IMG/VR virus record: IMGVR_UViG_3300045741_000267 | Coordinates: 1-44,873 of that record | Length of the DNA: 44,873 nucleotides | Direction: 5' to 3' (one strand) | Source: a virus | Shown here: piece by piece, positions 1,415 to 42,024 of the stretch | How the letters are laid out: each line of letters begins with the position of its first letter | How positions within the stretch are numbered: the stretch's first letter is position 1 | Program-made: the position numbers and the translations under genes | The notes under the pieces: model-generated | The model's input: only the letters and a program-made list of their open reading frames with translations | Told to the model about the DNA's origin: nothing | Databases searched by the model: none

Positions 1415-2173
1415 ATGGCTAAAAATGAATTGAAAACAGTGAACGAAGAAAAATCTTTGATGACTGACCAAATCCCCGAGTATCTGCGTGATAAGACCAC
1501 TTCCCGTGGTGCTGAAAACGTCGGTTCCGACGATTTAGTGATCCCGCGCCTTGAGTTGGTCCAAGATCTGTCCCCCTGCCGCAAGAAAACCGATCCCAGC
1601 TACATCGTCGGTTGTGAAGAGGGTATGATGTACAATAACGTCACCCGTGAACTCTACGGGGCTAGCGCGTTGGTAATCCCTGTGTATTTCCGTAAAGAGT
1701 GGTTGATCTGGGTTGACCGTGACAATGGCGGTGGCTTCCGTGGTGCATTCCCAACCGAAGCCGAAGCAACAGCGGCCATGGCCCTACTGGAAGACGCTGA
1801 TAACTGTGAAGTGATCGATACTGCCCAACATTTCTGCCTGATCGTACCTGAACATGGTGGTAAGGTGGAAGAGGTGGTGGTGTCGATGAGCAAGAGCAAG
1901 ATGAAAGCATCCCGTAAGTGGAACAGCCTGATCCGTATCAATGGCGGTGACTCTTTCGGTCGCATCTACCGCTTGAGTGCCGTAATGCAGTCTAATTCCA
2001 AGAATCAAGACTATTACAGCTTCGATGTGGCAGCGGCTGGATTCCCCACTGAAGAGGTTTACAAACGTGCTGAAGATCTGTACAATACCATCTCTGCTGG
2101 TGGTGTACAGGTGGACCGTAAGTTTGAGTCCGCGGAATCCGGTGAATCTGCCGGTTCTAAGCAAGAGTATTAA
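1415..2173 (+). CDS. putative ssDNA-binding/recombination protein
   Basis: This is 252 residues from ATG 1415 with the weak ribosome site AAAGGTG upstream. Features are LVIPRLELVQDLSPC near residue 45, GMMYNNVTRELYG, VIPVYFRKEWLIW, a lysine-rich SMSKSKMKASRKWNSLI segment and an acidic, Ser/Gly-rich tail (ESAESGESAGSKQ). Proteins with this IPRL-Q-LSP...ELYG...V-P-Y-RKEW layout are common in phage replication modules and are often suspected to act like T7 gp2.5. The basic central strand region and flexible acidic tail fit an SSB-like role. That is inference; no OB-fold can be proved by eye. A strong terminator follows. Confidence 0.55.
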   Translation: MAKNELKTVNEEKSLMTDQIPEYLRDKTTSRGAENVGSDDLVIPRLELVQDLSPCRKKTDPSYIVGCEEGMMYNNVTRELYGASALVIPVYFRKEWLIWVDRDNGGGFRGAFPTEAEATAAMALLEDADNCEVIDTAQHFCLIVPEHGGKVEEVVVSMSKSKMKASRKWNSLIRINGGDSFGRIYRLSAVMQSNSKNQDYYSFDVAAAGFPTEEVYKRAEDLYNTISAGGVQVDRKFESAESGESAGSKQEY

Positions 2174-2232: not shown

Positions 2233-2589
2233 ATGAAAGAAGATTTAGCAGCGCGGTTGTGGCGGGGATTTTGGATTCTGGGTGTTTACATTCGTTTCAC
2301 GTGGAACGCAAACTCCCGTGATGTGCCGTTTAAATACTCCCGCTATAAGACCAGCCGTGAGACTTCCCATTGGTTCTGGCGGTTTAATTGGGAGACGTTC
2401 AAAATGAGTAAAGAACCGTGTAAAAAGTGTGGTGGGTCTGGCGACTACGGTCTAGGCCAGACTTTCGGCGAGTGTTGGGATTGCGATGGGTCGGGGGAAG
2501 AAAATCTTAAGCGTTGGCTGATCGTGGCCGGTGCTGTAGTTGTTTTGGCCGTGATCGTCGGCATTATAGATATCGTGGTGGGTGCATGA
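2233..2589 (+). CDS. DnaJ-type zinc-finger membrane protein, unknown role
   Basis: This is 118 residues with AGAGAGGG before ATG 2233. The N-terminal ~55 residues are rich in Trp and Phe. Residues 63-87 hold two CxxCxGxG-like motifs (CKKCGGSG and CWDCDGSG), as in the DnaJ central zinc-binding domain. A hydrophobic segment (LIVAGAVVVLAVIVGIIDIV) ends the protein and should anchor it in the membrane. The stop overlaps the next start (ATGA), so it is translationally coupled to the UvrD-like helicase. No J-domain is present, so it is not a full co-chaperone. Confidence 0.7.
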   Translation: MKEDLAARLWRGFWILGVYIRFTWNANSRDVPFKYSRYKTSRETSHWFWRFNWETFKMSKEPCKKCGGSGDYGLGQTFGECWDCDGSGEENLKRWLIVAGAVVVLAVIVGIIDIVVGA

Positions 2590-4013
2590 AAGCTTGCGCC
2601 ATTTACGGTCCCCCGGGGTGTGGTAAGACTACTGAAATGCTTCGCCGCGTGGCTGAGGCTGGTACCCGTGTCAACCCAAGTGAGATCTGTTTTCTCTCAT
2701 TCACCAAGGCTGGGGCAGCTGAAGCGCTGAAGCGTCTGAACATCTCCCGGTCAGATAAGATTTGCACCATCCACTCGTTAATGTTCCGGTTAAATGGTAT
2801 GACCAGTGCCGGTGTGGTAGATTCCGCCAAGTTACGTAAGTTCGGGGATAAGGCCGGTTTCCGGTTTCGTGGCCAATCGAACGACACCGGTGAGCAAATG
2901 GAGATTGGTGACCAGTATCTAGCTATCCTGTCCCGGGCTGTGAACCGAATGGTTGATCTGTGGGATGAGTACCATGAATCAGATCGCCCCGGCGATTGGG
3001 AAGGCTTCCGGTTCTTCTGCGAGTCGTACAACGCATGGAAGCAGTCGAACGGCTATTGTGATTTTAACGACATGTTGTCCTTTTATGTGAAGAGCCGCCA
3101 TAACAGCCACACCCCCAAGATGAGTGTCGTGTTCGTGGACGAGGCCCAAGATCTGTCCAATCTACAATGGGAAGCTATCCGCACCTTGATCACCCAGTCG
3201 GGTGCGTCAGAAATCCACATTGCCGGGGATGACGATCAGGCTATTTACGAGTGGTCCGGAGCCAGTACCCACGGCATGTTAGCGTTTGAGGAAGAATTCA
3301 ATGCTATCCGCACAGTGCTGACCCAATCTTGGCGTGTACCTATTGCGGTTCACGGTATGGCCATGAAGGTGGTTCAGCGAATCGGCTCCCGGGTCGAGAA
3401 GATTTACTCACCGAAACCTGAACCCGGTTTAGTTGTGCGGTCATCCTACTTTAACCCGAAAAACATCGCCCCGGGCCGAGATACTCTGGTTCTGTGCCGT
3501 AACTACATCACTCGGAAAGAGATCGAGGATGAGCTGATTCGTCACCGAATCCCGTATGTTAACGAGGGGGGTCTCCCGGGCCTCTTCGGCACTCGACTGG
3601 CCGATGGGATACGGGCATTCAATAAGATGCAGCGAGGCGAACCCGTGTCCCCCAGTGAGCTAGAAAAAATAGCTTTGGTAGCCAACGAGAGAACCAAGCA
3701 CGAAGTTCAAACCCGGAATTTTAAACCGATGTTGGAGCGCGGGTTTATGCGATCGCTGGTGATCCCACCTCAGTTGGTGGATTTTTATCGCGACGCTGAT
3801 CTGACCGGTGAGCCACACATCCGGCTATCAACCATCCATTCGGCCAAGGGGCGCGAAGCTGATCATGTGATCATTCACCCGGGGCTGACCCAAAAAACGC
3901 TGGTGGACATGGAGAATAACCCGGACAGTGAAGCCCGTGTATGGTACGTGGCAGTGACCCGGGCCAAACACACCCTAGAGATACTTGAAGGAGATAACGC
4001 ATATGGCTTATGA
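2586..4013 (+). CDS. UvrD/Rep-family (superfamily 1A) DNA helicase
   Basis: This is 475 residues from ATG 2586, which overlaps the previous stop. The upstream in-frame ATG at 2514 would only add residues unlike any helicase. Walker A GPPGCGKTT is at residues 8-16, followed by motif Ia (LSFTKAGAAEAL). Motif II is VVFVDEAQDL, motif III is GDDDQAIYEWSGA, motif V is STIHSAKGREADHV and motif VI is VWYVAVTRAKHTL. This set defines a 3'-5' UvrD/PcrA or Dda-like helicase that unwinds replication or recombination intermediates. It is shorter than bacterial UvrD (about 700 residues), consistent with reduced 1B/2B subdomains. It is coupled to the neighbours on both sides. Confidence 0.92.
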   Translation: MKACAIYGPPGCGKTTEMLRRVAEAGTRVNPSEICFLSFTKAGAAEALKRLNISRSDKICTIHSLMFRLNGMTSAGVVDSAKLRKFGDKAGFRFRGQSNDTGEQMEIGDQYLAILSRAVNRMVDLWDEYHESDRPGDWEGFRFFCESYNAWKQSNGYCDFNDMLSFYVKSRHNSHTPKMSVVFVDEAQDLSNLQWEAIRTLITQSGASEIHIAGDDDQAIYEWSGASTHGMLAFEEEFNAIRTVLTQSWRVPIAVHGMAMKVVQRIGSRVEKIYSPKPEPGLVVRSSYFNPKNIAPGRDTLVLCRNYITRKEIEDELIRHRIPYVNEGGLPGLFGTRLADGIRAFNKMQRGEPVSPSELEKIALVANERTKHEVQTRNFKPMLERGFMRSLVIPPQLVDFYRDADLTGEPHIRLSTIHSAKGREADHVIIHPGLTQKTLVDMENNPDSEARVWYVAVTRAKHTLEILEGDNAYGL

Positions 4014-8576: not shown

Positions 8577-8804
8577 GTGACTATACACTACCCGGTTGGG
8601 TTGGAAAACCGGTATAATACCACCCGCATTATTGATTCTAAGGGGCAGTTAATCGCTCGCACCGAAATGGGCGCTGCAGCGGCTGTTGAAATCCGGGACG
8701 CACTGAACCACTGGGGCAATGTCAAGAAAGCCCGGGCTGCGCAAATTGAGGCCACCCACCGTATCAACAAGTTTGAAATTAACCCAAGGAGAGAAACACC
8801 ATGA
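8577..8804 (+). CDS. hypothetical protein
   Basis: This is 75 residues from GTG 8577, chosen because GGAGAA (8565-8570) is well placed and the previous gene ends at 8574. GTG 8556 and 8562 are alternatives. It is a short alpha/beta protein with an Ala- and Lys-rich helix. The end overlaps the PurZ start (ATGA), so it is coupled to it. Confidence 0.55.
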   Translation: MTIHYPVGLENRYNTTRIIDSKGQLIARTEMGAAAAVEIRDALNHWGNVKKARAAQIEATHRINKFEINPRRETP

Positions 8805-9946
8805 GCAAGCCAACACGTAAAGTAAGTTTAATCATCGACCTGCAGTTTGGATCCACCGGTAAGGGGGCATTGGCTGGTTATCTGGCCACCCGGGACAAGC
8901 CCGACACCGTAGTTACCGCTTGGGCGGCAAACGCTGGTCACACATTCATCGACGGTAATGACCGGAAGTATGTTCACACCATGCTGGCCAACGGGGTCGT
9001 GTCCACCGGCTTGAAGCAAGTCCTGATTGGCCCCGGTTCTATCATCGACCCTGATAATCTCCTAAAAGAGATCAAACAATGTGCCGACAAGCTGGTGGGG
9101 GTGGATATTGTGGTTCACCAAAATGCTGCCGTGATCACCGACATTCACCGGGATGAGGAAGCAGCTCAAGGTGGATCCATGACCAAGATCGGGTCTACCA
9201 AAAAGGGCTGCGGGGCTGCTGCCATCCAGCGGATTCGTCGTGAACCGAAGTATAACAACACTGCCAAAGAAGAGCTGTTGGGGGTCGGCCACCCGGTGAT
9301 GCGCTTCATCCGTGTGGCCACACCAGCCGAGTACAATGCCTGTTTGGATAAGGCCGAAAACATTCTAGTTGAGGGTGCACAGGGTCACTCGTTATCGATG
9401 TACCATGGTTTCTACCCCTATTGCACTTCCCGCGATGTGTCCACTGCCCAGATCCTTGCCGATTGTGGAATCCCACCGTTCGGATTCGCCGATATTAAGG
9501 TAATCGGGACAGCACGCACGTACCCTATTCGTGTGGCCAACCGTTTCAACGAGGCGGGTGATCAGGTGGGTTGGTCCGGGCCGTGTTACCCGGACCAAGA
9601 GGAAACGTCTTTCGAGGCCATCGGTCAACAGGTCGAATTGACCACCGTGACCAAGCTCCCGCGTCGGATCTTCACATTCTCTCTGATGCAGATCAAAGAG
9701 GCTGTTCGTCAGAATGGTGTTGATGAGATCTTCTTGAACTTCGTTAATTACTGTTCGCCAATCGATGCCTACGCTATCGTTCAACAGATCACCGAGGTGT
9801 GCAAGGTCAGCTACTTAGGTTACGGGCCTGGAATTGAAGATATGGTTGAGACGAATAGTAGCATTCAACCACCGTTGGACTTCGGGGTTGAAGACCGTAA
9901 GATAATCGGGTATGACCTAGCTAAGGACGACCATGCCGACATTTAA
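8801..9946 (+). CDS. purZ: PurZ: succinoaminodeoxyadenylate synthetase (PurA paralogue)
   Basis: This is 381 residues after a strong AAGGAG. It belongs to the adenylosuccinate synthetase family: the P-loop-like FGSTGKGA at 16-23, NAGHT at 44-48 (His47 equals PurA His41), GSTKKGCGAA and VEGAQG. PurA has GDEGKGK, with Asp as general base; here the Asp is Ser18. Replacement by a small residue makes room for the 2-amino group of dGMP and is the hallmark of phage PurZ. Expected reaction: dGMP + aspartate + ATP (or dATP) to N6-succino-2-amino-dAMP, then host PurB gives dZMP. It is shorter than bacterial PurA (about 430). MazZ and DatZ genes follow, overlapping or adjacent. Family is certain; PurZ specificity rests on Ser18 and context. 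Confidence 0.93.
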   Translation: MSKPTRKVSLIIDLQFGSTGKGALAGYLATRDKPDTVVTAWAANAGHTFIDGNDRKYVHTMLANGVVSTGLKQVLIGPGSIIDPDNLLKEIKQCADKLVGVDIVVHQNAAVITDIHRDEEAAQGGSMTKIGSTKKGCGAAAIQRIRREPKYNNTAKEELLGVGHPVMRFIRVATPAEYNACLDKAENILVEGAQGHSLSMYHGFYPYCTSRDVSTAQILADCGIPPFGFADIKVIGTARTYPIRVANRFNEAGDQVGWSGPCYPDQEETSFEAIGQQVELTTVTKLPRRIFTFSLMQIKEAVRQNGVDEIFLNFVNYCSPIDAYAIVQQITEVCKVSYLGYGPGIEDMVETNSSIQPPLDFGVEDRKIIGYDLAKDDHADI

Positions 9947-10439
9947 ATCCGACAGTATCCGAGGATTAACCACCGAGATCACTGGGTGGGCTAATGAAAC
10001 GTTCCCTGACCGTACCCCGGCTTCGGCTCTTTTGAAGCTGTTCGGTGAGATTGGGGAGCTGATCGAGTCCCCGCGCTCACCGGGGGAGTACGCGGACATC
10101 TGTATTTTGCTGTTCGACTTAGCTAATATGCACGGGATCGATCTTGGGCAGGCCATTTGGGATAAAATGCAGATTAACAAAGGCCGCACATGGTCGTTAT
10201 CCGAGTCCGGCACCTATCGACATATCGAGGGCGAATGTCAGCAAGTGGAAGAGTATGCAGATCCCGACTCAGTGGCCACCTTGACCCTGCCGTACAATCT
10301 CGGGTATGAGGATGCCAAGGATGGGTTAAGCCCTAGATCCGTGCTCACTCTGTCCGGGGCTGATGTCCCAACCACAATGGACAACACGCGCAACTATCTA
10401 GCTGGTTACAATTCTTTCCCCGGGGGTGAGCATGGCTAA
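9933..10439 (+). CDS. mazZ: MazZ: MazG-like (d)GTP pyrophosphohydrolase with C-terminal extension
   Basis: This is 168 residues, overlapping PurZ by 14 bases with AAGGAC upstream. Residues 1-90 are an all-alpha NTP pyrophosphatase module: E39-I-G-E42 and E52-Y-A-D55 give the metal-binding ExxE and ExxD pairs. In Z phages the enzyme turns dGTP/GTP into (d)GMP, the PurZ substrate. Residues about 92-168 are an extension not needed by the MazG fold, with LGYEDAKDGL and LAGYN motifs reminiscent of short phage GYxDG-type proteins. The specific dGTP activity is inferred from its place between PurZ and DatZ. Confidence 0.85.
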   Translation: MPTFKSDSIRGLTTEITGWANETFPDRTPASALLKLFGEIGELIESPRSPGEYADICILLFDLANMHGIDLGQAIWDKMQINKGRTWSLSESGTYRHIEGECQQVEEYADPDSVATLTLPYNLGYEDAKDGLSPRSVLTLSGADVPTTMDNTRNYLAGYNSFPGGEHG

Positions 10440-10980
10440 CTCATTAACGCTATCCCAAAAGCTCCGAGCATCCCACGTGAAGCGGTGGCAAATTGTGAAC
10501 GTGTCCCGTCAGCAAACGATCGCTGAACACATGTTCAACGTGAACCTGATCGCTATGGAAATCGGGCGCAGAATGGGCATTAACCGCGCTGGGATGGAGT
10601 ACATTAGTCGGTGGGCGTTAATTCACGATATCCCCGAGGTGGTGACCGGTGACATTGCCACTCCAACCAAGCAAGCAATGCGGGCAGCGGTCCCGGATTC
10701 GGACCCAATCCATCACGTGGAATTGAGCCTAGATGATGAGTATAAGGAGTTGTACTTGACCATGAAAAAAGATATGCCGGTGGAACTGGATGTGGTTAAG
10801 TTGGCGGACATGATCGATGCTGCTGTGTTCCTGCTGGATCACGGTATTGGAAGGCACGCGGAGCAGGTCCGGCTCACGATTGTCCACGATATGCGTAAAA
10901 AGGTCACCGACTGCGCCAAAAAATACACGGGTGCTAATTGGTCCGTGGTAACAGACATTTACAACAAATTAGTGGGTTAA
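10432..10980 (+). CDS. datZ: DatZ: HD-domain dATP triphosphohydrolase
   Basis: This is 182 residues from ATG 10432 (GGGGGTGAG just upstream). With this start the residues R18, W19 and H33 fall at the same numbers as in E. coli YfbR, followed by H65-D66, E69, D74 and the second-half D126 in KLADMIDA: the complete HD metal set. In Z-genome phages this family removes dATP (to deoxyadenosine and triphosphate) so adenine is not built into DNA. It overlaps MazZ by 8 bases. A generic 5'-nucleotidase is the alternative, made less likely by context. Confidence 0.87.
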   Translation: MANSLTLSQKLRASHVKRWQIVNVSRQQTIAEHMFNVNLIAMEIGRRMGINRAGMEYISRWALIHDIPEVVTGDIATPTKQAMRAAVPDSDPIHHVELSLDDEYKELYLTMKKDMPVELDVVKLADMIDAAVFLLDHGIGRHAEQVRLTIVHDMRKKVTDCAKKYTGANWSVVTDIYNKLVG

Positions 10981-10995
10981 AAACGGAGAGCAACA

Positions 10996-11328
10996 ATGAT
11001 CAAAGCGCGATTCATCAATCTTCTCAAGTCCCAACTGGAGGACTTAATTAAACTGACCCAAACTAAGGGGGAAGAGTACGCCCGGTCAGACGACCAGCTA
11101 GCCAACTTCAAGCGGCAAGCGGCTGAACTTGGTATGGCCAAGGAAAAGGTACTTGGAATATTCTTAAACAAGCACTTGGATTCAATTAAGGGGTATATAG
11201 CCGACACCGAAAAGCCGATGTCCGAGCCCATCGAAGGGCGCATCGATGATGCTATCTTATACTTGGTTCTTCTGAAGGCGATGGTAGTTGAAAAACGCGA
11301 GTCGGACGCGGGATCACCCTGCGGTTGA
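10996..11328 (+). CDS. DUF1599-like nucleotide-modification-associated protein
   Basis: This is 110 residues with GGAG before ATG 10996. The pattern KGEEYARSDDQLANFKRQA, KHLDSIKGYI and EGRIDDAILYLVLLKAM matches the all-alpha family called nucleotide modification associated domain 1 (DUF1599), related in layout to MazG-type folds. It is the last gene of the Z-cassette transcript and ends at a convergent border. Role unknown; a nucleotide-pool function beside PurZ/MazZ/DatZ is a reasonable guess. Confidence 0.65.
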   Translation: MIKARFINLLKSQLEDLIKLTQTKGEEYARSDDQLANFKRQAAELGMAKEKVLGIFLNKHLDSIKGYIADTEKPMSEPIEGRIDDAILYLVLLKAMVVEKRESDAGSPCG

Positions 11329-11730
11329 TATCAGTTCGGTGAACTCATCCCAGTTCACCTGCTTTTCCCAAACCCGGTAGGCATCCCTAAGCAGAACAAC
11401 ATAGGGAACCACCGGGTTGTTGACTAAGTGGAGTTGGCTGTGACGCAATAGAATGAACTTTGGCCCCACTCGCATGAACAGGAAGCAGAGCCCGGTCCGG
11501 TTACCGTGCTTAACCAGCCAGTTCCTTTGTTCGGGGGTGAAGTGCTTGAATCTTAGCGATTTATTGGGGGCGGGTTCCGTGGCGGTGAATTTTAATTCAA
11601 TCCATCCGCCAACGGTTGTGGAATAGGACAAATCGGGGATACCAGTGGTGTACTTGTCTTCGTGACGTTGGGCGTCCCATCTGGACCCCATACCGTCACG
11701 AAGATACTCCCAGAATTTATGCTCCGACAC
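11314..11730 (-). CDS. VRR-NUC-like PD-(D/E)xK endonuclease
   Basis: This is 138 residues. GIPDLSY (Asp33), then GGWIELKFT (Glu45, Lys47) gives the D...E-x-K active site, in a protein of the size and layout of phage VRR-NUC or Holliday-junction-type nucleases. HFTPEQRNWLVKHG is the helix that follows in this family. It probably cuts branched DNA during recombination or before packaging. Its 3' end overlaps the DUF1599 gene tail to tail by 15 bases; its 5' end overlaps the next leftward gene. Confidence 0.8.
   Translation of the reverse strand: MSEHKFWEYLRDGMGSRWDAQRHEDKYTTGIPDLSYSTTVGGWIELKFTATEPAPNKSLRFKHFTPEQRNWLVKHGNRTGLCFLFMRVGPKFILLRHSQLHLVNNPVVPYVVLLRDAYRVWEKQVNWDEFTELISTAG
11338..11366 (+). 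terminator. terminator-like hairpin at convergent border
   Basis: GGTGAACT (11338-11345) pairs perfectly with AGTTCACC (11352-11359) over a 6-base loop, followed by TGCTTTT. It lies 10 bases after the rightward DUF1599 gene and inside the 3' end of the leftward nuclease gene, so it would stop the rightward transcript. Confidence 0.55.
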
Positions 11731-12187
11731 TCTCGATCCAGATGTAGTAGGTGGTCACGATTTCCGGGTTAGTTTTTGACTTATAAACAGCAAAAATCGA
11801 ACTGTCGGTAATACGAGTGTTAGACTCAACAATCCAATCGTCAGGATGTTCGTCATCACCAGCCATGCAAGTACACTCATGAACGAGCTTGGCGATGGCA
11901 CCGTAGAAGACGACCGTATGATCACTCCCCGGAAGCTTAATAGACGGCGATTTAAATTTAAAAGCATAGTCACTGGTCTCCCGGGTGTAGGAGTCCCACA
12001 CCATAACGTTAACGGACATGAGCTTGGGTGTGATCTTGAAGACGTCGGAGGGGAACCACTGACATTTCCCCTCTTTCGAGGCGTTGACCCAGACGATCCC
12101 CGCTCCTTTACGGATGGCGTTAATCAACCACTTGTCAGACTGATCGCCCCGGTAAGGGAGCAAATCACCGATTTTGATCTCAGTCAT
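11717..12187 (-). CDS. hypothetical protein
   Basis: This is 156 residues. ATG at 12187 is supported by GGAGGTG five bases upstream; a start at 12220 would lack one. It is Trp-rich, with a CTCMAGDDEHPDDW segment. The function is not recognised. It overlaps both neighbours in the leftward operon. Confidence 0.65.
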   Translation of the reverse strand: MTEIKIGDLLPYRGDQSDKWLINAIRKGAGIVWVNASKEGKCQWFPSDVFKITPKLMSVNVMVWDSYTRETSDYAFKFKSPSIKLPGSDHTVVFYGAIAKLVHECTCMAGDDEHPDDWIVESNTRITDSSIFAVYKSKTNPEIVTTYYIWIESVGA

Positions 12188-12386
12188 GTTGCACCTCCAT
12201 TGCGAAAGCAACGGCATCATTCACCGAGTCGGCCATTGACTCACAATTGCTTGGATATTCAATGGGATCGCCGTGCGGGTCAAACAACTCAACACAACCC
12301 CCGGAATTCTCGATGGATAATAGAATCTGCCAACCACCCGGCAAGTGCTCTGCCGCATTATCGATCGCTTCCTCAAAGGCACCCAT
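12180..12386 (-). CDS. small hypothetical protein
   Basis: This is 68 residues, ATG at 12386, overlapping the stop of the preceding leftward gene. It is acidic with helical ends (FEEAIDNAAEHL, SVNDAVAFAMEV). Unknown family; support comes from the overlaps and the AAGGCGG upstream. Confidence 0.55.
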   Translation of the reverse strand: MGAFEEAIDNAAEHLPGGWQILLSIENSGGCVELFDPHGDPIEYPSNCESMADSVNDAVAFAMEVQHD

Positions 12387-12877
12387 CACACACCGCCTTT
12401 TTTAGGGAACTTAACTTCAGACAGCTTACGAATGCGGTTTCCGAGGGTCATTCGTTGCATTCCGGGGTTGAGATGGCTATATCTGGCCGTTAGAGCCTCG
12501 ACAGACTCACCTAAGTTGAAAGCGGCCACTTTATAAACGTAGCCCAATTCCATGCCACGCAAGAGAGACGCGATTTTATCGCCGCAATCCAGCGTTTGCC
12601 GACCGGATGAGGTCGTAAACCCGGGGGCGGCGATGTAGTTACTGATATTTGCAACGGATTTACCAATTTTCCAGATCCGTGGACCTTTAGGGGTGACTTC
12701 TTCATCTGGCGTTTGTTCGATATTTGCCACCACCGGGGTGAGAGAGCCGTTACGGACTCGTCTCTTGGTCCCCATGACCTTAATTAGGGTCCAGCCGCCA
12801 TTCACTAAGACTGATTCACAAGGGTGGTCTACACCTGTTGCCGGGTCACGGTAAGTGTGGGTTACTTTAATTGTCAT
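12386..12877 (-). CDS. hypothetical protein, first gene of leftward operon
   Basis: This is 163 residues from ATG at 12877. It begins with a beta-rich 45 residues (VTHTYRDPATGVDHP, VNGGWTLIKVMG) and continues with a helical, basic second half with KIGKSVANISNYIAAPGF and ESVEALTARYSHLNPGMQR, which could be a helix-turn-helix but is not a clear match. The leader box lies seven bases upstream. Confidence 0.6.
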   Translation of the reverse strand: MTIKVTHTYRDPATGVDHPCESVLVNGGWTLIKVMGTKRRVRNGSLTPVVANIEQTPDEEVTPKGPRIWKIGKSVANISNYIAAPGFTTSSGRQTLDCGDKIASLLRGMELGYVYKVAAFNLGESVEALTARYSHLNPGMQRMTLGNRIRKLSEVKFPKKGGV

Positions 12878-13350: not shown

Positions 13351-13404
13351 TTTCAATTGCAGCCATGCAATGGTAAAATAGAGTGGCAATTGCAAGCGTG
13401 CAAT
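13351..13404 (+). promoter_or_regulatory. late-operon promoter flanked by two palindromic operators
   Basis: -10 TAAAAT at 13374-13379 with TGG before it; the -35 TTTCAA (13351-13356) is poor. Palindromes ATTGCA-N4-TGCAAT lie at 13356-13371 and 13389-13404, exactly 33 bp apart (about three turns). One covers the spacer, the other the start of the transcript. A weak -35 plus paired dyads suggests control by a dimeric regulator. Confidence 0.7.
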
Positions 13405-13427
13405 ACAAACACATGGGGCAAATTGAG

Positions 13428-14006
13428 ATGGCTACGAAATTAACTGACATGGATTGGGTTCAGGTTCGGATTGAACGAGAGACCCGGGGCACCAGCTTCC
13501 CAGCATTGGCAAAGCAGTGGGGAATTAGTCATCAGCGTATCCAGTCCAAAGCACGGGAGCAGGGGTGGTCCGATGGCACCGATGGCAACAATAAGGCCAA
13601 CATTCTCGCCCGTGAGCGTGCTGCAGGGATAGCGGCAGCCAGTGACCCCGCCCGTGAAGCCACTATTAGTAAAGCGGCTGATGATAAAGTCGCCATATTG
13701 GTCAACCACCGTAAGGATTGGGCTCAACATCGTGAGATTTACGACCTAGGTGAGATGGCCGCAGGTCTGATCCCGGGTGAAGAAGATGTAGACATCGATG
13801 ACCCGGATAAGTTGGATCTTAGTGATAACGTTAGCTTGCAAAGGCTGAATCTCGGGATGTCCATGCTCAAGCTCAAGTGCGCTAAGGTAGCTGCCGACGT
13901 ACTTAAATTGCGTCAGGATGGTGAGCGTAGAGCCTACAACATCTCTGATGAAGATTTCAACAAGAATAATGCACCTAAGAGCCTTGCCGATTTTTATGGT
14001 GAATAA
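13428..14006 (+). CDS. terS: terminase small subunit
   Basis: This is 192 residues, taken from ATG 13428 (starts at 13383 or 13413 lie inside the operator region). The N-terminal ~45 residues form a helix-turn-helix (SFPALAKQWGISHQRIQSKAREQGW) for binding the packaging site. A middle helical part (NHRKDWAQHREIYDLGEMA) fits oligomerisation. The acidic stretch EEDVDIDDPDKLDLSD is notable. It opens the late operon and overlaps TerL. Confidence 0.85.
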   Translation: MATKLTDMDWVQVRIERETRGTSFPALAKQWGISHQRIQSKAREQGWSDGTDGNNKANILARERAAGIAAASDPAREATISKAADDKVAILVNHRKDWAQHREIYDLGEMAAGLIPGEEDVDIDDPDKLDLSDNVSLQRLNLGMSMLKLKCAKVAADVLKLRQDGERRAYNISDEDFNKNNAPKSLADFYGE

Positions 14007-15405
14007 CGAGCCATCACGGTTGAATCCTGCGCTTCGAGAGTTCTGGCGGACCAAGGCCAGATACCGTGTTTTGTTGGGTGGCCGAGCATCAAGTAAGTCG
14101 TGGGACGCTGCTGGGTTTGCCATCTATCTGGCGTCTAACTACCGGGTCAGATTCCTTTGTGCCCGTCAGTTTCAAAACCGCATCGCTGATTCCGTGTATG
14201 CTCTATTAGAGATCCAAGCAGAACGATTTAAAGTCCATGATGAATTCCATTTTACCGATAACTCGATCATCCATAAAGGCACTGGGTCCGAGTTCCTGTT
14301 TTATGGGATCGCTCGTAATTTAAAAGAGATTAAGTCCACCGAGAACATAGACATCTTCTGGTTAGAAGAAGGTGACCAGCTCGACGCTGAACAATGGAAG
14401 CTGATCGAGCCTACCGTACTGCGCAAACAAGGATCACAGGCATGGATCGTGTTTAATCCCCGGTTCGCCTCTGATTTTGTGTACCAGCGCTTCATTGTGA
14501 GCCCACCACCTAAGACTATCTCCCGTCACATTAATTGGGATGAGAATCCTTTCTTGTCTGACGACATGAGGGAGATCATCATTAATGCAAAAGAAGAGGA
14601 CGAGGATGAGTACAACCATGTTTATTTGGGCATCCCTCTGACCGATGATGAGCGGGTTATTATCAAACGCTCTTGGATCGAGGCCGCTATAGACGCCCAC
14701 ATTAAGTTGGGGTTTGAGCCTGAGGGCCGTAAAGTGATCGGGTTCGATGTAGCTGATGATGGTGACGATAAGTGTGCCAATGTTGAGGCGCATGGCTCTG
14801 TGGCTCTGTGGTGTGAAGAGTGGAAAGGCGGCGAGGATGAGTTACTTAAATCGTGTTCACGTACATACCTGAACGCGTCCGAGCGTGGTACAATGATAAG
14901 GTATGACTGTATTGGTGTTGGCGCTGGTGCAGGAGCTAAGTTCGATGAGTTGAACCAAGGCAGGGTGCAAAAGGTGAAGTATGCTAAATTTAATGCCGGT
15001 GATGCTGTACATGAGCCCGAACGGTTCTATGTCCAGAACAGACAAGAGCGAATCAAGAACAAGAACTACTTCGGTAACCTCAAGTCACAAACGTGGTGGT
15101 TGATCGCCGACCGGTTTAGAAATACGTACAATGCTATCCGATATGGTACGCACTACGAGCCCGATCAATTAATCAGCATCTCATCTAAGATGCCGCATTT
15201 AGAGAAGCTCAAAACAGAATTGTCGACCCCTCGCCGCGATTTTGACCAAAATGGCCGGGTTAAGGTGGAGAGTAAAAAGGATCTGGCTAAACGGAACATC
15301 GCCAGCCCCAACATCGCTGATGCTTTCGTGATGTGCTTTGCCCCTGAGGGTCACGGTCAAATAAAAATTAGTAATGCAGCCGTAACCAACGCTGCACGCA
15401 GGTAA
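13996..15405 (+). CDS. terL: terminase large subunit
   Basis: This is 469 residues from ATG 13996 (GTG 13999 possible). The ATPase has Walker A GGRASSKS (28-35), adenine-binding CARQFQNRI, and Walker B IDIFWLEEGDQL. The nuclease starts with VIGFDVADDGDDK, supplying the first metal-binding Asp, and ends near ASPNIADAFVMCF with a further acidic residue. It translocates DNA into the prohead and cuts it. The layout matches the terminase_3/XtmB-type group. The end type (pac or cos) cannot be read from sequence alone. Confidence 0.93.
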   Translation: MVNNEPSRLNPALREFWRTKARYRVLLGGRASSKSWDAAGFAIYLASNYRVRFLCARQFQNRIADSVYALLEIQAERFKVHDEFHFTDNSIIHKGTGSEFLFYGIARNLKEIKSTENIDIFWLEEGDQLDAEQWKLIEPTVLRKQGSQAWIVFNPRFASDFVYQRFIVSPPPKTISRHINWDENPFLSDDMREIIINAKEEDEDEYNHVYLGIPLTDDERVIIKRSWIEAAIDAHIKLGFEPEGRKVIGFDVADDGDDKCANVEAHGSVALWCEEWKGGEDELLKSCSRTYLNASERGTMIRYDCIGVGAGAGAKFDELNQGRVQKVKYAKFNAGDAVHEPERFYVQNRQERIKNKNYFGNLKSQTWWLIADRFRNTYNAIRYGTHYEPDQLISISSKMPHLEKLKTELSTPRRDFDQNGRVKVESKKDLAKRNIASPNIADAFVMCFAPEGHGQIKISNAAVTNAARR

Positions 15406-27708: not shown

Positions 27709-28146
27709 ATGTCTAACACGACAATCACAAGTGCCAATAGTGTATTCACCCTCGTTATCCCGGGGCTGTTTCCAGCTCCTGTTCAACTACGTGGGTATGC
27801 TGTTGACAAGGCCTTTGCAGTTGAGTCCGTGGATTTGGCTGAGGTTCAGATGGGTGTTGACGGCCGTATGACCGCTGGCTATGTTCCCAACGCAACTAAA
27901 ACAACCATTTCGCTACAAGCTGATAGTCCGAGTCGGGATATCTTCTCTGCTTGGATTCAAGCGACCAAAACGGCAAGGGAAGTGTTCTTTGCATCGGGAT
28001 CTATCTCGTTGCCGAGCACGGGGGAGACCTACACCCTAACCCGTGGTGTGCTGCAAAACGTCCCACAAGTACCAACAGCGGCTAAGGTATTACAGGCTAT
28101 GGATTTTGTTATCGTTTGGGAAAATATCTCTCGTTCGCTGCTTTAA
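27709..28146 (+). CDS. tail tube protein
   Basis: This is 145 residues with AGGGGTAAG before ATG 27709. NSVFTLVIPGLFPAPVQLRG, VDLAEVQMGVDGRMTAG and VFFASGSISLPSTGETYTL match the DUF3277-like tubes paired with DUF3383 sheaths. The order sheath, tube, chaperones is standard. Confidence 0.82.
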   Translation: MSNTTITSANSVFTLVIPGLFPAPVQLRGYAVDKAFAVESVDLAEVQMGVDGRMTAGYVPNATKTTISLQADSPSRDIFSAWIQATKTAREVFFASGSISLPSTGETYTLTRGVLQNVPQVPTAAKVLQAMDFVIVWENISRSLL

Positions 28147-28850: not shown

Positions 28851-30743
28851 ATGGCAACGGTTATCGACAGTCTAATAGTTACACTAGGTTTGGACTCCAC
28901 CGGGTTCAATGTCAACAGACAAAAGGTGGACAGTGGACTACGGGAAACGGGTAACCAAGCCGACCAAACCGGTAAGAAGCTGAAAAAAGCTGGTAAAGAT
29001 GGATCTGAATCCTTTCAGTCACTGTCGAAAACCGCTGCCCAATTCCTAGCTATTATTGGCGGGACAATGGCCATCAAGGCGTTTGTCCAAGATGTCTTAG
29101 AATCCAGTGCCGCTCTGGACCGCTTATCTAAAAATCTCGGTGAGAACGTTAACACAATATCGGCATGGTCACAAGCTGCCGAGCAGGCTGGCGGCACTGC
29201 CAGTGGTCTGCAAGGTACGATGGACATGCTTAGTAAGTCCCAGACCGAGTTGATGCTCACCGGTGAGTCATCGTTGATTCCGTATTTCACATCATTGGGT
29301 ATCTCACTGGCTGATACCAATGGTAAAGCCCGACCTGTCAACGACCTGCTGATGGATATGGCTACGTCATTTGGACGCATGGACCGGACCACAGCGAACA
29401 ACATGGGCCGGATGATGGGCCTCGACCAAGGCACAATGAATCTGTTGCTTAAAGGCCGTCAAGAAATCGAAATGACGATCAAACGTCAGAAAGAGTATGG
29501 AGCCGTAACCAAGCAGCAAGCTGAGGAAGCAAGTAGGCTGAAGCGAGCCATTACCGAAGGCCGCCAAAGCTTCGAAGCGTTTGGCCGGGAATTACTGTCT
29601 GCAGCCACCCCGGCCCTTGAAAAGTTGCTGGCGGTGTTCTCAGATATGGGCGCTTGGATGCGTGAAAACCAAGAATTCGTAACTACGTTCCTGAAGATTG
29701 TGGCAGTGGGATTAGGTCTGATCGCTGCCGCTGTGACTCCAATTAACCTGACCATCGCCGCTGTTGTTGCTTTGGCTGGGGCCATCGCTCTATTGTACCA
29801 AGACTATCAAACATGGAAGCGGGGTGGTGAGAGCTTTATCGATTGGGGTAAATGGGAGCCCGGATTCAAAGCCGCCGGGAATGCCATCCGTTGGATTCGA
29901 GATCTGTTAGGTGACTTGATCTATAGAGCTATCGCTGCCGCCGACGTTCTGGCTGCTGTGTTCGAGCAAGATTGGGAGCGTGCCAAGTTCGCTGCAGGTG
30001 AGTTCATCAGCGGTAACGGTAAAAAGTATGGCTCCCAAGACCCTGAGGGTATACCGCCAGTACCGACAACAGCACCCGGGTCGAAACTAGCCACTGTCAG
30101 CACGGTTAATTCCACTAGCAAGTCCCCCGCTGGCACACCCGCACAAGAAAACGCGGCCATATCCTATTTCCAACGCATGGGTTGGTCAAAAGAACAGGCT
30201 GCGGGGATTGTAGCTAATATGAAACGCGAATCCAACCTACGTCCAGATGCCATTGGTGATGGGGGTAAAGCATTCGGGATCGCCCAATGGCATCCAGACC
30301 GCCAAGCGCAATTTAAGAAAGTATTCGGCAAACCGATTCAGGGTTCAACACTGGAAGAGCAATTAGCATTCGTTAATTACGAGCTGACACAGGGCAATGA
30401 GACAGGAGCAGGCAACAAACTAAGAGGCGCTAAAACCGCCCAAGAAGCTGGGGGAATAGTATCTCGGTATTATGAGAGACCTATGAATGCCGATAGTGAG
30501 TCATTAATGCGTGGGGGTATAGCTACCAACCTGCTCAATGGCTTCCCGGGGGCGTCCGTTGCGTCCCGGACACCGGGCGCTATGGCGTTTAACCAGCCAG
30601 CCAATGCCGGGAATCAATCAACCGTGACGATCGGTGAGGTAAAAGTATATACCAGTGCCACTGACGCCGACGGCATAGCCAAGGACATGGGATCGTCGCT
30701 GAATAGCTTATATGCGTCAAACGCCAATTACGGGAATTTCTAG
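28851..30743 (+). CDS. tape measure protein with tail lysozyme domain
   Basis: This is 630 residues starting with AAGGA upstream of ATG 28851. The N-terminal half is helical with coiled-coil parts, a hydrophobic segment (FLKIVAVGLGLIAAAVTP, AVVALAGAIALLYQ) and the fold typical of tape measures. Residues about 430-560 (ISYFQRMGWSKEQAAGIVANMKRESN, AFGIAQWHPDRQAQF) match the Phage_lysozyme2 domain, which probably digests peptidoglycan during injection. A length of 630 predicts a rather short tail. Confidence 0.87.
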   Translation: MATVIDSLIVTLGLDSTGFNVNRQKVDSGLRETGNQADQTGKKLKKAGKDGSESFQSLSKTAAQFLAIIGGTMAIKAFVQDVLESSAALDRLSKNLGENVNTISAWSQAAEQAGGTASGLQGTMDMLSKSQTELMLTGESSLIPYFTSLGISLADTNGKARPVNDLLMDMATSFGRMDRTTANNMGRMMGLDQGTMNLLLKGRQEIEMTIKRQKEYGAVTKQQAEEASRLKRAITEGRQSFEAFGRELLSAATPALEKLLAVFSDMGAWMRENQEFVTTFLKIVAVGLGLIAAAVTPINLTIAAVVALAGAIALLYQDYQTWKRGGESFIDWGKWEPGFKAAGNAIRWIRDLLGDLIYRAIAAADVLAAVFEQDWERAKFAAGEFISGNGKKYGSQDPEGIPPVPTTAPGSKLATVSTVNSTSKSPAGTPAQENAAISYFQRMGWSKEQAAGIVANMKRESNLRPDAIGDGGKAFGIAQWHPDRQAQFKKVFGKPIQGSTLEEQLAFVNYELTQGNETGAGNKLRGAKTAQEAGGIVSRYYERPMNADSESLMRGGIATNLLNGFPGASVASRTPGAMAFNQPANAGNQSTVTIGEVKVYTSATDADGIAKDMGSSLNSLYASNANYGNF

Positions 30744-31523: not shown

Positions 31524-31835
31524 ATGCTATCGATCCCTCTCCAGCCCCAACCAGCCCAGACAGTTAAAGTCGTTCTAGATGGCCAGAACTGCCAGATCTA
31601 TATTTATCAAAAAGACCAAGGCCTATTCGTTGACGTGAACTCTAATGGGGTCGATATCGTTACTTGCGTTATCGCTCGCAATGTTGACCCATTAATCTGC
31701 CGCACTTACGCGGGGTTCGTTGGTGATCTAATGTTCGTCGACAATCAGGGGGTATCGGACCCTGTGTCTACTGGATTGGGTGATCGCTACTCTTTAGTGT
31801 ACCTATCGGCGTCTGATTATGACCTCATTCGCTAA
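31524..31835 (+). CDS. baseplate plug protein
   Basis: This is 103 residues. IPLQPQPAQTVKVVLDGQNCQIYIYQK, LICRTYAGFVGDLMFVDNQG and YSLVYLSASDYDLIR match the small plug-like proteins that precede hub genes in many myophages. It overlaps the next gene by 17 bases. Confidence 0.75.
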   Translation: MLSIPLQPQPAQTVKVVLDGQNCQIYIYQKDQGLFVDVNSNGVDIVTCVIARNVDPLICRTYAGFVGDLMFVDNQGVSDPVSTGLGDRYSLVYLSASDYDLIR

Positions 31836-32691
31836 TAAAAAGCAGCTTAAAATAGTCGTCACACTGGGTACTAAAAAATTCGGGTCCAGTGATCACGATC
31901 GAGTCACACTTACCGGATTTCGGGCTGCTGTTACCATTGATAAAGCGGGTGGGGTGACCATGAGCACACTACGCGCCAAAATCTACGGCGTTAAGCAACA
32001 AGACATGAACAGCATTACTACACTTCAATGGAAAGTCGGGACGTTAATCCCCAACACCGTGGAAGTGTTCGCGATTGATGGCGACCTAGAGAGTAGAGTA
32101 TTCGCCGGTAACATCGTCAATGCATGGGCTGACTACCAGAACATGCCGGACGTCTTCTTACATATCCAAGCCCAATCAGCCTATTTCGACCAACTGAAAT
32201 CCATTCCACCTAGGAGCTTTAAAGGGTCGGTCGATGTTGCCATAACAATGAAGCAGATCGCTGATGGTATGGGGCTGGCATTCGAGAACAACGGGGTTGA
32301 TATCAAGCTGACCGACGTATACTTACCTAACACCGCCACTGAACAGATGAAGGAGCTAGCCAAGGCTGCCAACATCGACGTGTATTTGGACGACAGTGTA
32401 TTGGCGATCGCTAAGCGGTATGGCCCCCGGTCCTCGATCATCCCGGTGATATCAGCCAATTCCGGGCTGGTTGGGTACCCAACATTCGACGGTACCGGAG
32501 TCAACTTCAAATCACTCTTCAACCCTAATGTCACATTTGGGGGATTGATCCAATTGGAAACAGATGTGGAGCAAGCCCGGGGGCAGTGGATTGTAACCAG
32601 CGTTGCGCACCAATTGGAGAGCGAAAAGCCCGGGGGCGCTTGGTTCACAACGATCAGAGGGAATCTAAACGGCTATGCCATTACCAAATGA
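31819..32691 (+). CDS. baseplate hub protein (gpD/gp27-like)
   Basis: This is 290 residues. GGVTMSTLRAKIYGV, QWKVGTLIPNTVEVFAIDGDL, VFAGNIVNAWADY and FNPNVTFGGLIQLETDVE read as the two-barrel hub fold ending in VTSVAHQLESEKPGGAW, a signature of phage hub proteins that sit on the spike. It overlaps the spike gene. Confidence 0.75.
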   Translation: MTSFANKKQLKIVVTLGTKKFGSSDHDRVTLTGFRAAVTIDKAGGVTMSTLRAKIYGVKQQDMNSITTLQWKVGTLIPNTVEVFAIDGDLESRVFAGNIVNAWADYQNMPDVFLHIQAQSAYFDQLKSIPPRSFKGSVDVAITMKQIADGMGLAFENNGVDIKLTDVYLPNTATEQMKELAKAANIDVYLDDSVLAIAKRYGPRSSIIPVISANSGLVGYPTFDGTGVNFKSLFNPNVTFGGLIQLETDVEQARGQWIVTSVAHQLESEKPGGAWFTTIRGNLNGYAITK

Positions 32692-33439
32692 GCAGGAGAT
32701 ATCTTTAGGGCGACAAATACCTAATGACACATGGGGTGAGTTTAACAACATGTCGTTCTTGGTCCAGCAGGCTCTGGGTAAAATGCAGACAGCCACACTG
32801 GTGCGGGTCGAGGCATGCACCAACAGTGGTGGATTGTCCCCCGTTGGATTCGTCGATGTCACACCGTTAATCAACCAGATCGATGGTCAGGGCAATGCCC
32901 AACCTCACGCGACCATCTTTAACGTGCCGTACTCACGCGCACAGGGCGGGGCCAATGCCGTCATCATGGACCCGGTTGTGGGGGATATTGGTATATGCGT
33001 ATTTGCAAATCGCGATCTATCTAAGGTTAAATCCACCAAAAAGCAGGCCAACCCCGGTAGCTATCGTTCATTTTCGTTCTCAGATGGGCTGTACATTGGA
33101 GGTGTTTTAAATGGGACACCGACCCAATACACTCAATTCAACAATTCTGGAATAACGATCCACTCCCCTACTGCCATCACCCTTAGTGCGCCAGACATTC
33201 AACTGATAGCGCCGACAATTGAATTAAACGCCAGTGCCTCTGTGTCAGTTACAACGCCAGTGTTTACCGTTACTGGCTCGACGGTGCTTGTAGGTGGATT
33301 GTCGCAAAGTGGCGGGAATGCTATAATGTCGGGGACACTTACTGTAACCGGCGACATCACTGGCGCAGGTAAGAGCGTAAGCACCCACATCCATGGTGGA
33401 GTTCAAACGGGCATAGGGAACACGGGCACCCCAGTATGA
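32675..33439 (+). CDS. baseplate spike (Gp138/gpV-like)
   Basis: This is 254 residues from ATG 32675 overlapping the hub end. The first 110 residues fit the Gp138 N-terminal OB fold (LVRVEACTNSGG, VMDPVVGDIGICVFA-like text). A beta-helical stretch of repeats (ITIHSPTAITLSAPDIQLIA, SASVSVTTPVFTVTG) follows. The tip has STHIHGG, the HxH iron-binding motif of spikes that puncture the outer membrane. Confidence 0.85.
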   Translation: MPLPNEQEISLGRQIPNDTWGEFNNMSFLVQQALGKMQTATLVRVEACTNSGGLSPVGFVDVTPLINQIDGQGNAQPHATIFNVPYSRAQGGANAVIMDPVVGDIGICVFANRDLSKVKSTKKQANPGSYRSFSFSDGLYIGGVLNGTPTQYTQFNNSGITIHSPTAITLSAPDIQLIAPTIELNASASVSVTTPVFTVTGSTVLVGGLSQSGGNAIMSGTLTVTGDITGAGKSVSTHIHGGVQTGIGNTGTPV

Positions 33440-33795
33440 CGACCTACGATACACTACTTCTCGACCAAACTGAATGGGATCTAGTCGTAGACTCAGCCGG
33501 TAATATTGCCATGGGTTCACCTGCATATGCACTTGCTCAGGATGTAGCCAGTGCAATTAAGTTGTTTTTAGGCGAATTGTGGTATGATACTACAAAAGGC
33601 ATCCCCTACTTCGAGGACATTCTCGGACAGGCACCACCCTCATCCCTAATTACAGCCAACATGGAGCAGGCCGCTATGACTGTCCCCGGTGTGGTTTCTG
33701 CTCAATGTACCATTACGTCATTCAATGATCGCGAATTGAATGGCATCGTTCTATTTATCGATGAAAACGGTGTGCAAAATGGCGTTTCCTTCTAG
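33436..33795 (+). CDS. baseplate wedge protein (gp25/W-like)
   Basis: This is 119 residues. Start overlaps the spike stop. NIAMGSPAYALAQDVASAIKLFLGELWYDTTKGIPYFEDILGQ matches GpW/gp25. It contains no lysozyme active site; a structural role only. Confidence 0.88.
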   Translation: MTTYDTLLLDQTEWDLVVDSAGNIAMGSPAYALAQDVASAIKLFLGELWYDTTKGIPYFEDILGQAPPSSLITANMEQAAMTVPGVVSAQCTITSFNDRELNGIVLFIDENGVQNGVSF

Positions 33796-34996
33796 CGTAC
33801 CACCGATTCAATTTACTACAGCCGGTCTGATCATCCCATCAGAAACGGATGTCCTCGCCGGTGTTCAAGCTGATATCAATGCTGCGTTCGGTGGTGGACT
33901 TAACCCCGCACTTGAAACACCTCAAGGTCAAATCGCCTCAAGTGAGGCCGCGATCATCAATGATAAGAATGCAGAGATTGCCTTAGTCGTCAATCAGATC
34001 GACCCCAAATACGCGGATGGTCGGTTCCAAGATGCCATTGGGCGCATTTATTTTATTGACCGTAAACCCGCCACACCCACTGCGGTTCAATGCACATTGA
34101 ATGGCTTGAACGGGACAGTGATCCCCGCTGGTACTCTGGCAAAAGACACATCTGGTAACACATATATTCTGGCCGGGTCCGTCACGATTGGTGTGACTGG
34201 TAATGTTACAGGTGAATTCCAAAATATCGTCACCGGGCCAATTCCCTGCCCCGCCGCAACATTGACGCAAGTCTACCAAGCGATCCCGGGCTGGGATACC
34301 ATCACTAATGCTGCCGACGGTTCAATCGGGGCCAATGTTGAGAGCCGATTCGATTTCGAATTCCGCCGCAAAAATTCCGTGGCCATCAACGCACTGGGGA
34401 CACCGCAAGCTATCTATGCTAATGTTTTCGCTGTCGAGAATGTCTTAGATGTCTACGTTAAAGATAACCCAACCGGGTCCACGGTCAACACCGGTACCAC
34501 TAATTATCCCATTATCGCCCATTCAGTCTATGTGGCTGTGGTTGGTGGCCTTGATGCCGACATAGCGCAGGCCATATGGAGCAAGAAAGACTTGGGTTGC
34601 GACTATAACGGAGATACCTCCGTGACCGTTACAGATTCAAGTGGCTATAGCTACCCCCAGCCAACCTACGTGGTTAAATTCGAGCGCCCAACACCCCTGC
34701 CGATTAAATTCGCTGTAGAGATCGTTGATAGTCCCAGCCTGCCGTCCAATATCGTAGACTTGGTTAAAGCGGCCATCATTGCCCGATTCAACGGTGTGGA
34801 CGGCACATCGCGGGAGCGGATTGGGTCTACTGTGCTGGCAAGCCGGTATTATCCAGCTGTTGCATTGGCGTCCACCTATGTATCGCTGCTAAGTATCCTG
34901 ATTGGTACCTCCACGGCCACTTTAACTCAGGTAGGCGTCGGCATCGATCAGAATCCAACCATCACCGCGTCAGATATTACGGTGACACTGGTATGA
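33779..34996 (+). CDS. baseplate J-like protein
   Basis: This is 405 residues from ATG 33779. The start at 33740 would overlap the W-like gene by 56 bases. The Baseplate_J pattern runs through ADINAAFGGGLNPALETPQGQIASSEAA, CTLNGLNGTVIPAGTLAKDTSGN and DFEFRRKNSVAINALGTPQAIYANV. It forms the inner wedge that links the hub to tail fibres. It overlaps the next gene by four bases. Confidence 0.88.
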   Translation: MAFPSSVPPIQFTTAGLIIPSETDVLAGVQADINAAFGGGLNPALETPQGQIASSEAAIINDKNAEIALVVNQIDPKYADGRFQDAIGRIYFIDRKPATPTAVQCTLNGLNGTVIPAGTLAKDTSGNTYILAGSVTIGVTGNVTGEFQNIVTGPIPCPAATLTQVYQAIPGWDTITNAADGSIGANVESRFDFEFRRKNSVAINALGTPQAIYANVFAVENVLDVYVKDNPTGSTVNTGTTNYPIIAHSVYVAVVGGLDADIAQAIWSKKDLGCDYNGDTSVTVTDSSGYSYPQPTYVVKFERPTPLPIKFAVEIVDSPSLPSNIVDLVKAAIIARFNGVDGTSRERIGSTVLASRYYPAVALASTYVSLLSILIGTSTATLTQVGVGIDQNPTITASDITVTLV

Positions 34997-42009: not shown

Positions 42010-42024
42010 TAACCAGAGGTGAAT

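Follow-up and report, generated by a model that had tools for sequence, protein, structure and literature searches.

Does the gene cluster that begins at position 8801 of IMG/VR record IMGVR_UViG_3300045741_000267 encode a complete pathway for the replacement of adenine (A) by 2-aminoadenine (Z), and does the genome that carries it also specify a contractile tail? The record is a metagenomic contig of 44,873 bp, which was analyzed at its full length (referred to below as the window). It very probably represents a near-complete genome of a contractile-tailed phage with a functional Z-genome system, composed of PurZ, a MazZ of the MazZ-1 type, DatZ and a DNA polymerase (DpoZ) of the phiVC8 type. 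The identity of the system is supported by the fact that the curated models for PurZ and DpoZ were passed, that the best matches in the PDB were enzymes of the Z pathway, and that diagnostic residues are present in all four proteins.

The four enzymes of the Z pathway

The PurZ protein matched the model NF038379 with 357.7 bits (E=4e-107; curated cut-off 300) and phrog_1211 (E=1.5e-85), and its best PDB match was 7odx (E=6.5e-92). We take the structures 7odx, 7ody and 6zpa to be PurZ, MazZ and DatZ of cyanophage S-2L, which is supported by alignment to the S-2L genes. The diagnostic residues of PurZ, of the pocket of MazZ and of DpoZ were taken from PMC8342488, PMC8599892 and PMC12884076. In PurZ, S18 occupies the site of Asp13 of PurA and S23 of S-2L, i.e. 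a serine stands in place of the catalytic aspartate, which is the criterion given for PurZ (PMC12884076). T281 aligns with S-2L T273, and N316 lies at the site of S-2L Q308, where N is common in most other PurZ proteins.

A PurZ tree was built from 104 sequences, including nine PurA proteins of the bacterial type and PurZ0 of three phages. The nine PurA rows formed one clade with 100% support, and the window PurZ lay outside it, within a set of 77 PurZ rows (98%) that includes S-2L, phiVC8 and SH-Ab 15497. It also lay outside the PurZ0 group (100%), which comprised the three phages and one sequence from a metagenome-assembled genome (MAG). These comparisons confirm the predicted product as PurZ of the GTP type and not PurZ0; the preliminary description of this DNA, made from its letters alone, had called it PurZ-like and had proposed that a tree should place it with PurZ rather than inside PurA, which is what we observed.

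The MazZ protein matched PF04447 with 35.5 bits (cut-off 23), and its best PDB match was 7ody (E=6e-19). It retains E39, E42, E52 and D55 (S-2L E35, E38, E50 and D53), a list that we read from the MazG motif and take to be the metal ligands. The guanine-pocket residues I58 and D62 are also present, corresponding to I56 and D60 of S-2L MazZ (PMC8342488), and the position of S-2L E34, a site that varies (PMC8342488), is occupied by G38. The C-terminus of MazZ carries an extension of approx. 65 aa (10240-10439, plus strand) with GY-rich motifs (GYEDA, YLAGYN), which is partly common to the MazZ of the IMG/VR contig G096 and absent from that of S-2L and of contig G104 (both contigs are described below).

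DatZ matched phrog_7076 (E=1.6e-34) and, in the PDB, 6zpa (E=7e-19). It keeps H35, H67, D68, E71 and D128, equivalent to H34, H66, D67, E70 and D119 of S-2L, which we presume to be the metal-binding and catalytic residues.

The genes purZ, mazZ and datZ are open frames on the plus strand, and each pair of neighbours overlaps by 14 bp (8 bp for mazZ/datZ, should DatZ start at the ATG at 10432). The overlapping trio reported in the preliminary description was thus confirmed, with matches far above chance, and its family assignments and key residues (of the S-2L type) also hold. Of the span it had given for the cassette, 8801-11328, the start was retained; the end was not, since datZ stops at 10980 and the remainder is a fourth open reading frame (ORF), 10996-11328. 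The order of the genes is conserved: among 101 IMG/VR PurZ loci whose downstream sequence extends for 3 kb or more (window included), datZ lies downstream of purZ in 100 and a MazZ-1 gene adjoins in 91.

The family A polymerase had been placed just upstream of the cassette. It is DpoZ, located 1.67 kb away with several small ORFs in between, so that the gene stands but the word "just" is a loose one. It matched NF038380 (aminoadenine-incorporating DNA polymerase DpoZ) with 831 bits (cut-off 500). Its best PDB match was 7pbk (E=2e-134), which we take to be the phiVC8 DpoZ, the title of the record being only "DNA polymerase I". L434, F438 and G524 correspond to the marks of the phiVC8 clade (L455, F459 and G548), and an HD dyad is present at 560-561. 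Of 73 IMG/VR PurZ loci for which the upstream sequence extends for 6 kb or more, only 31 have a DpoZ-like polymerase within 6 kb; the remaining loci may use PrimPol, like S-2L, or a polymerase located elsewhere.

DpoZ and the cassette form part of a module common to siphovirus-type Z phages, composed of a primase, two Pam3-like genes, a UvrD helicase, DpoZ, purZ, mazZ and datZ, to which a phrog_6802 gene and a small VRR-NUC-like gene (the nuclease label is our own reading) are often added. Homologues of the AEP-type primase adjoin the Z module in most of the contigs compared. The Pam3 gp34-like protein shows 53-54% identity to its counterparts in phages of the SH-Ab 15497 type; its gene is kept in Z phages and occurs in non-Z phages too.

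Contractile tails in Z genomes

The structural part of the window (Table 1) contains genes for a DUF3383 sheath, a tube, a hub, a wedge and baseplate J, and the tail, to judge by this gene content, is contractile; the preliminary description of a DUF3383-sheath virus is borne out. The sheath is at best 44-46% identical to those of deposited phages and 78% identical to that of the IMG/VR contig L077.

Table 1. Predicted features of the window and the matches on which they rest.
Feature	Coordinates	Strand	Basis or remark
Pam3 gp34-like replication-module protein	1415-2173	+	PF23977, 237 bits
UvrD/PcrA-like helicase	2514-4013	+	PF00580, phrog_1967; syntenic in most compared Z contigs
dpoZ, family A DNA polymerase with 3'-5' exonuclease, phiVC8 type, 610 aa	5303-7135	+	NF038380, 7pbk, residues
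purZ, succino-2-amino-deoxyadenylate synthetase, 381 aa	8801-9946	+	NF038379, PDB 7odx, residues, tree
mazZ (MazZ-1 type), (d)GTP diphosphohydrolase, 168 aa	9933-10439	+	PDB 7ody, PF04447, residues
datZ, HD-domain dATP triphosphohydrolase, 184 aa	10426-10980	+	GTG start, alternative ATG at 10432; phrog_7076, 6zpa
phrog_6802 protein, 110 aa, four-helix	10996-11328	+	starts 15 bp after datZ
Terminase small and large subunits, start of structural module	13383-15405	+	phrog_1206, phrog_3717, PF04466
DUF3383 tail sheath, 509 aa	26169-27698	+	PF11863, 398.5 bits (cut-off 34.9); phrog_205 tail sheath, E=2e-87
Probable tail tube / virion structural protein	27709-28146	+	phrog_1964, PF22764 E217_Gp32
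Tape measure protein with tail lysozyme domain	28851-30743	+	phrog_9570, PF18013
Baseplate hub	31819-32691	+	baseplate block 31819-34996: phrog_196, phrog_3216, phrog_120, phrog_6; PF22759, PF18946, PF04865
Spike-like protein with Apex motif	32675-33439	+	within baseplate block
Baseplate wedge	33436-33795	+	within baseplate block
Baseplate J	33740-34996	+	PF04865, 49.2 bits
AEP-type primase	42019-43590	+	phrog_21866, E=2e-116; PF22548

A gene for an SNF2-type helicase is split across both ends of the contig (1-428 and 43590-44873), which do not overlap. Residues 6-431 of a homologous helicase (L004) match the right end and residues 442-577 the left end, so that about ten codons are absent. The window is therefore a near-complete, permuted genome.

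A DUF3383 sheath was also found in four of the 82 other IMG/VR PurZ contigs searched (G096, G104, G108 and G110), a lower bound, since many contigs are fragments; the PurZ relatives returned from IMG/VR were 80 of 396 confirmed. The G096 sheath was weak by Pfam (36.6 bits) but matched phrog_205 "tail sheath" with 111 bits. The canonical sheath family PF04984 was not detected in 50 PurZ-contig records. Contig G104 (IMGVR_UViG_3300010231_000012, 47.5 kb) combines the Z module with homologues of the window sheath, major capsid protein (MCP), portal and baseplate J; its sheath is 45% and its PurZ approx. 56% identical.

A further example is the cultured Burkholderia phage Bm1 (PP183292.1), the only one of these phages whose contractile sheath is seen by transmission electron microscopy (PMC12003559). 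Bm1 also carries purZ, datZ, a small MazZ-like gene between them, dpoZ and a DUF3383 sheath gene. It differs in genome size (67.5 kb) and in sequence, with 39% (MAFFT) to 42% (tblastn) identity in PurZ and 23% in the sheath. The terms adenylosuccinate, aminoadenine, diaminopurine, PurZ, dATP and 2-amino do not occur in the text of the Bm1 paper (PMC12003559), and its Z gene set apparently stands in GenBank without remark.

How many times have such genomes arisen? A single clade of the six sheath-bearing PurZ proteins was rejected by the approximately unbiased (AU) test (p=5.7e-5), as was a clade of five with Bm1 left out (p=1.3e-4). A clade of the window, G096 and G104 was not rejected (p=0.46). 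The test used 46 of the rows and a model simpler than that of the 104-row tree. It follows that there were at least two joining events, their number not being fixed by these results. The PurZ of Bm1 groups with that of BUCT555, which makes Bm1 a separate combination.

The closest PurZ relatives of the window, contigs G002 and G003, contain no DUF3383 or PF04984 sheath; both have a different tape measure protein, and the portal of G003 is of a different type. The window sheath is itself nested within contigs that yielded no PurZ, nor was a PurZ detected in the sheath and TerL (large terminase subunit) relatives searched, some of which are fragments. The sheath-bearing PurZ proteins not forming one clade, and the sheath being nested in this way, the Z module appears to have joined contractile modules more than once. 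On the simplest reading, a conserved Z replication module has been exchanged, presumably en bloc and in more than one lineage, between structural modules of different kinds. We consider it likely that this module is independent of its chassis and was joined to contractile modules at least twice, probably three times or more, and that fully A-free contractile viruses form a recurrent, unrecognised class in which Z-DNA is sent through sheath-driven tails.

Proposed working and alternative explanations

In the proposed pathway, MazZ would convert (d)GTP into (d)GMP, and PurZ would condense dGMP with aspartate into succino-2-amino-dAMP at the expense of ATP or dATP. PurB and kinases of the host would then complete dZTP, as is known for the general pathway. 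DatZ would clear dATP from the pool, while DpoZ would favour Z over A opposite T, its exonuclease preferentially removing A. Virion DNA should as a result contain Z instead of A and be shielded from A-reading enzymes. The Z genes are carried in a conserved replication module (primase, helicases, DpoZ and purZ-mazZ-datZ) that is joined here to a contractile structural module. Each of the phage-encoded steps is established for homologues (PMC8342488, PMC8065100, PMC8599892, PMC12884076); for the window phage, we infer both the enzyme activities and the full replacement of A by Z from the encoded sequences.

Several points weigh against this interpretation. A contractile-tailed phage with Z-DNA is shown neither here nor in the papers searched. 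The acceptance of Z intermediates by PurB and the kinases of the host is assumed. The activities are assigned by homology, PurZ being 45-51% and DpoZ 39-49% identical to the S-2L, phiVC8 and SH-Ab 15497 proteins, and MazZ carries a C-terminal extension that S-2L MazZ lacks.

That the gene at 8801-9946 is an ordinary PurA acquired for metabolism has a negligible probability: it does match the PurA family PF00709 of Pfam, but it falls far below the cut-offs of the PurA models, its catalytic aspartate is replaced by serine, the tree separates it from PurA at 100% support, and mazZ, datZ and dpoZ accompany it. The tree and the active-site residues rule PurA out. A working cassette with only partial replacement, in which some dZTP is made and A is still common in virion DNA, is more plausible than PurA, though improbable. 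The phiVC8 DpoZ incorporates traces of adenine when dATP is available (PMC8599892), and when the S-2L triad was put into E. coli the result depended on the host polymerase (PMC8342488). The window, however, encodes both DatZ and a DpoZ with all the clade marks, the pairing that has been invoked to explain why phiVC8 contains no A at all (PMC8599892).

There is also the question of whether one molecule carried both modules, or whether a Z phage of the siphovirus type was merged with a contractile phage during assembly. A chimera of this kind would agree with the differing structural genes of G002 and G003 and with the lack of a detected PurZ in the nearest sheath relatives. On the other hand, the helicase gene split between the ends implies that both module junctions were assembled within one permuted genome, and G+C is flat (48-54%) along the whole contig. 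Moreover, G104 independently unites the Z module with homologues of the window MCP, portal, sheath (407 bits) and baseplate J (451 bits), and cultured Bm1 likewise combines the Z gene set with a DUF3383 sheath. For these reasons we regard a chimera as very unlikely.

Neighbouring genes and relation to known Z phages

In 18 of the 101 PurZ loci, among them those of the contractile contigs G096, G104 and G108, datZ is followed by a homologue of the phrog_6802 protein; the family is also present in other phages, for example Rhodothermus phage RM378 and several Arthrobacter phages. The sequence had no match in Pfam or the PDB and no credible one in NCBIfam. An AlphaFold model gave a confident four-helix fold (pLDDT 88), for which only non-significant PDB matches were obtained, some of them to MazG-like folds; the protein is possibly an extra nucleotide hydrolase. 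Three small genes on the minus strand follow the cassette (11314-12877). Most of the Z contigs compared contain homologues of the first (11314-11730), which is VRR-NUC/RecU-like by a weak Pfam match to RecU only, and of the third (12386-12877).

PurZ-like genes were also noted elsewhere. A separate, supported clade comprises sequences from Clostridia and Bacilli MAGs (L191, L196, L197, L199, L201, L204 and L205), which had been fetched by patterns of the Ser-type (GSTGK) and TTVTK motifs, together with Bacillus phage vB_BpsS-140 (L180); the two MAG loci tabulated, L191 and L197, gave no match to the window MazZ, DatZ or DpoZ. PurZ/PurA-like genes of approx. 27-33% identity occur on large plasmids (NZ_CP021125.1, NZ_CP050089.1, NC_017324.1 and others) of Rhizobium, Sinorhizobium, Agrobacterium and Methylobacterium, one of them adjoining purB. 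Matches to PurZ, DatZ and DpoZ together were found on three contigs binned as bacterial (L215, the Gammaproteobacteria MAG contig JALVAL010000103.1; L188; and L189), which are probably phage contigs binned with their hosts, or prophages.

Phages with the Z trait are named only as Siphoviridae and Podoviridae in PMC8599892 and PMC8342488, while PMC12884076 recognizes at least seven groups of Z phages with no mention of tail type. A contractile-tailed Z phage was not reported in the literature searched; subscription papers outside it (e.g. Zhou 2021, Pezo 2021) could mention one. The expectation that the window would widen the range beyond siphoviruses and podoviruses therefore holds relative to PMC8599892 and PMC8342488, but Bm1, already in GenBank, precedes the window as a genome of this kind. 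Six genomes, one of them that of a cultured phage, now couple the complete set of Z enzymes to a contractile tail, and the trees require more than one joining event. This suggests a spread of the Z trait with its replication module, whatever the type of virion. DpoZ and PurZ sequences are added from new lineages, and the existing isolate Bm1 makes the Z chemistry of contractile phages directly testable.

On the structural side, TerL is 59-62% identical to that of Edwardsiella phage GF-2 and Pseudomonas phage Orisa01. For GF-2/Edno5 and Orisa01-03 as a group (41-46 kb, DUF3383 sheath) the values are 59-62% for TerL and 37-44% for the sheath, and these phages were not among the matches listed (60 of 61) for phage records with a close PurZ.

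Among Z phages, S-2L has the same tight purZ-mazZ-datZ order and provides the closest solved structures for all three enzymes; unlike the window phage, it is a siphovirus with a non-selective PrimPol and no DpoZ (PMC8342488). Vibrio phage phiVC8 shares the DpoZ clade marks, but it is a podovirus with a short tail, its PurZ is 45% identical, and the window MazZ profile found no match near its purZ, where the middle gene encodes 86 aa. The group of SH-Ab 15497 and its relatives (Klebsiella K21lambda1, Salmonella PMBT28 and Pseudomonas PSA28) carries the Pam3 gp34-like gene, UvrD helicase, DpoZ, purZ, MazZ-1 domain and datZ in the order of the window, with 50-53% identity in PurZ and 47-49% in DpoZ. 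In contrast to the window, the three members tested (SH-Ab 15497, K21lambda1 and PSA28) lack a DUF3383 sheath, and MazZ of this type is longer, that of SH-Ab 15497 being fused to DUF5664 (PMC12884076). The cassette is a standard one of known kind, while its contractile chassis is new with respect to the papers searched, though not with respect to GenBank.

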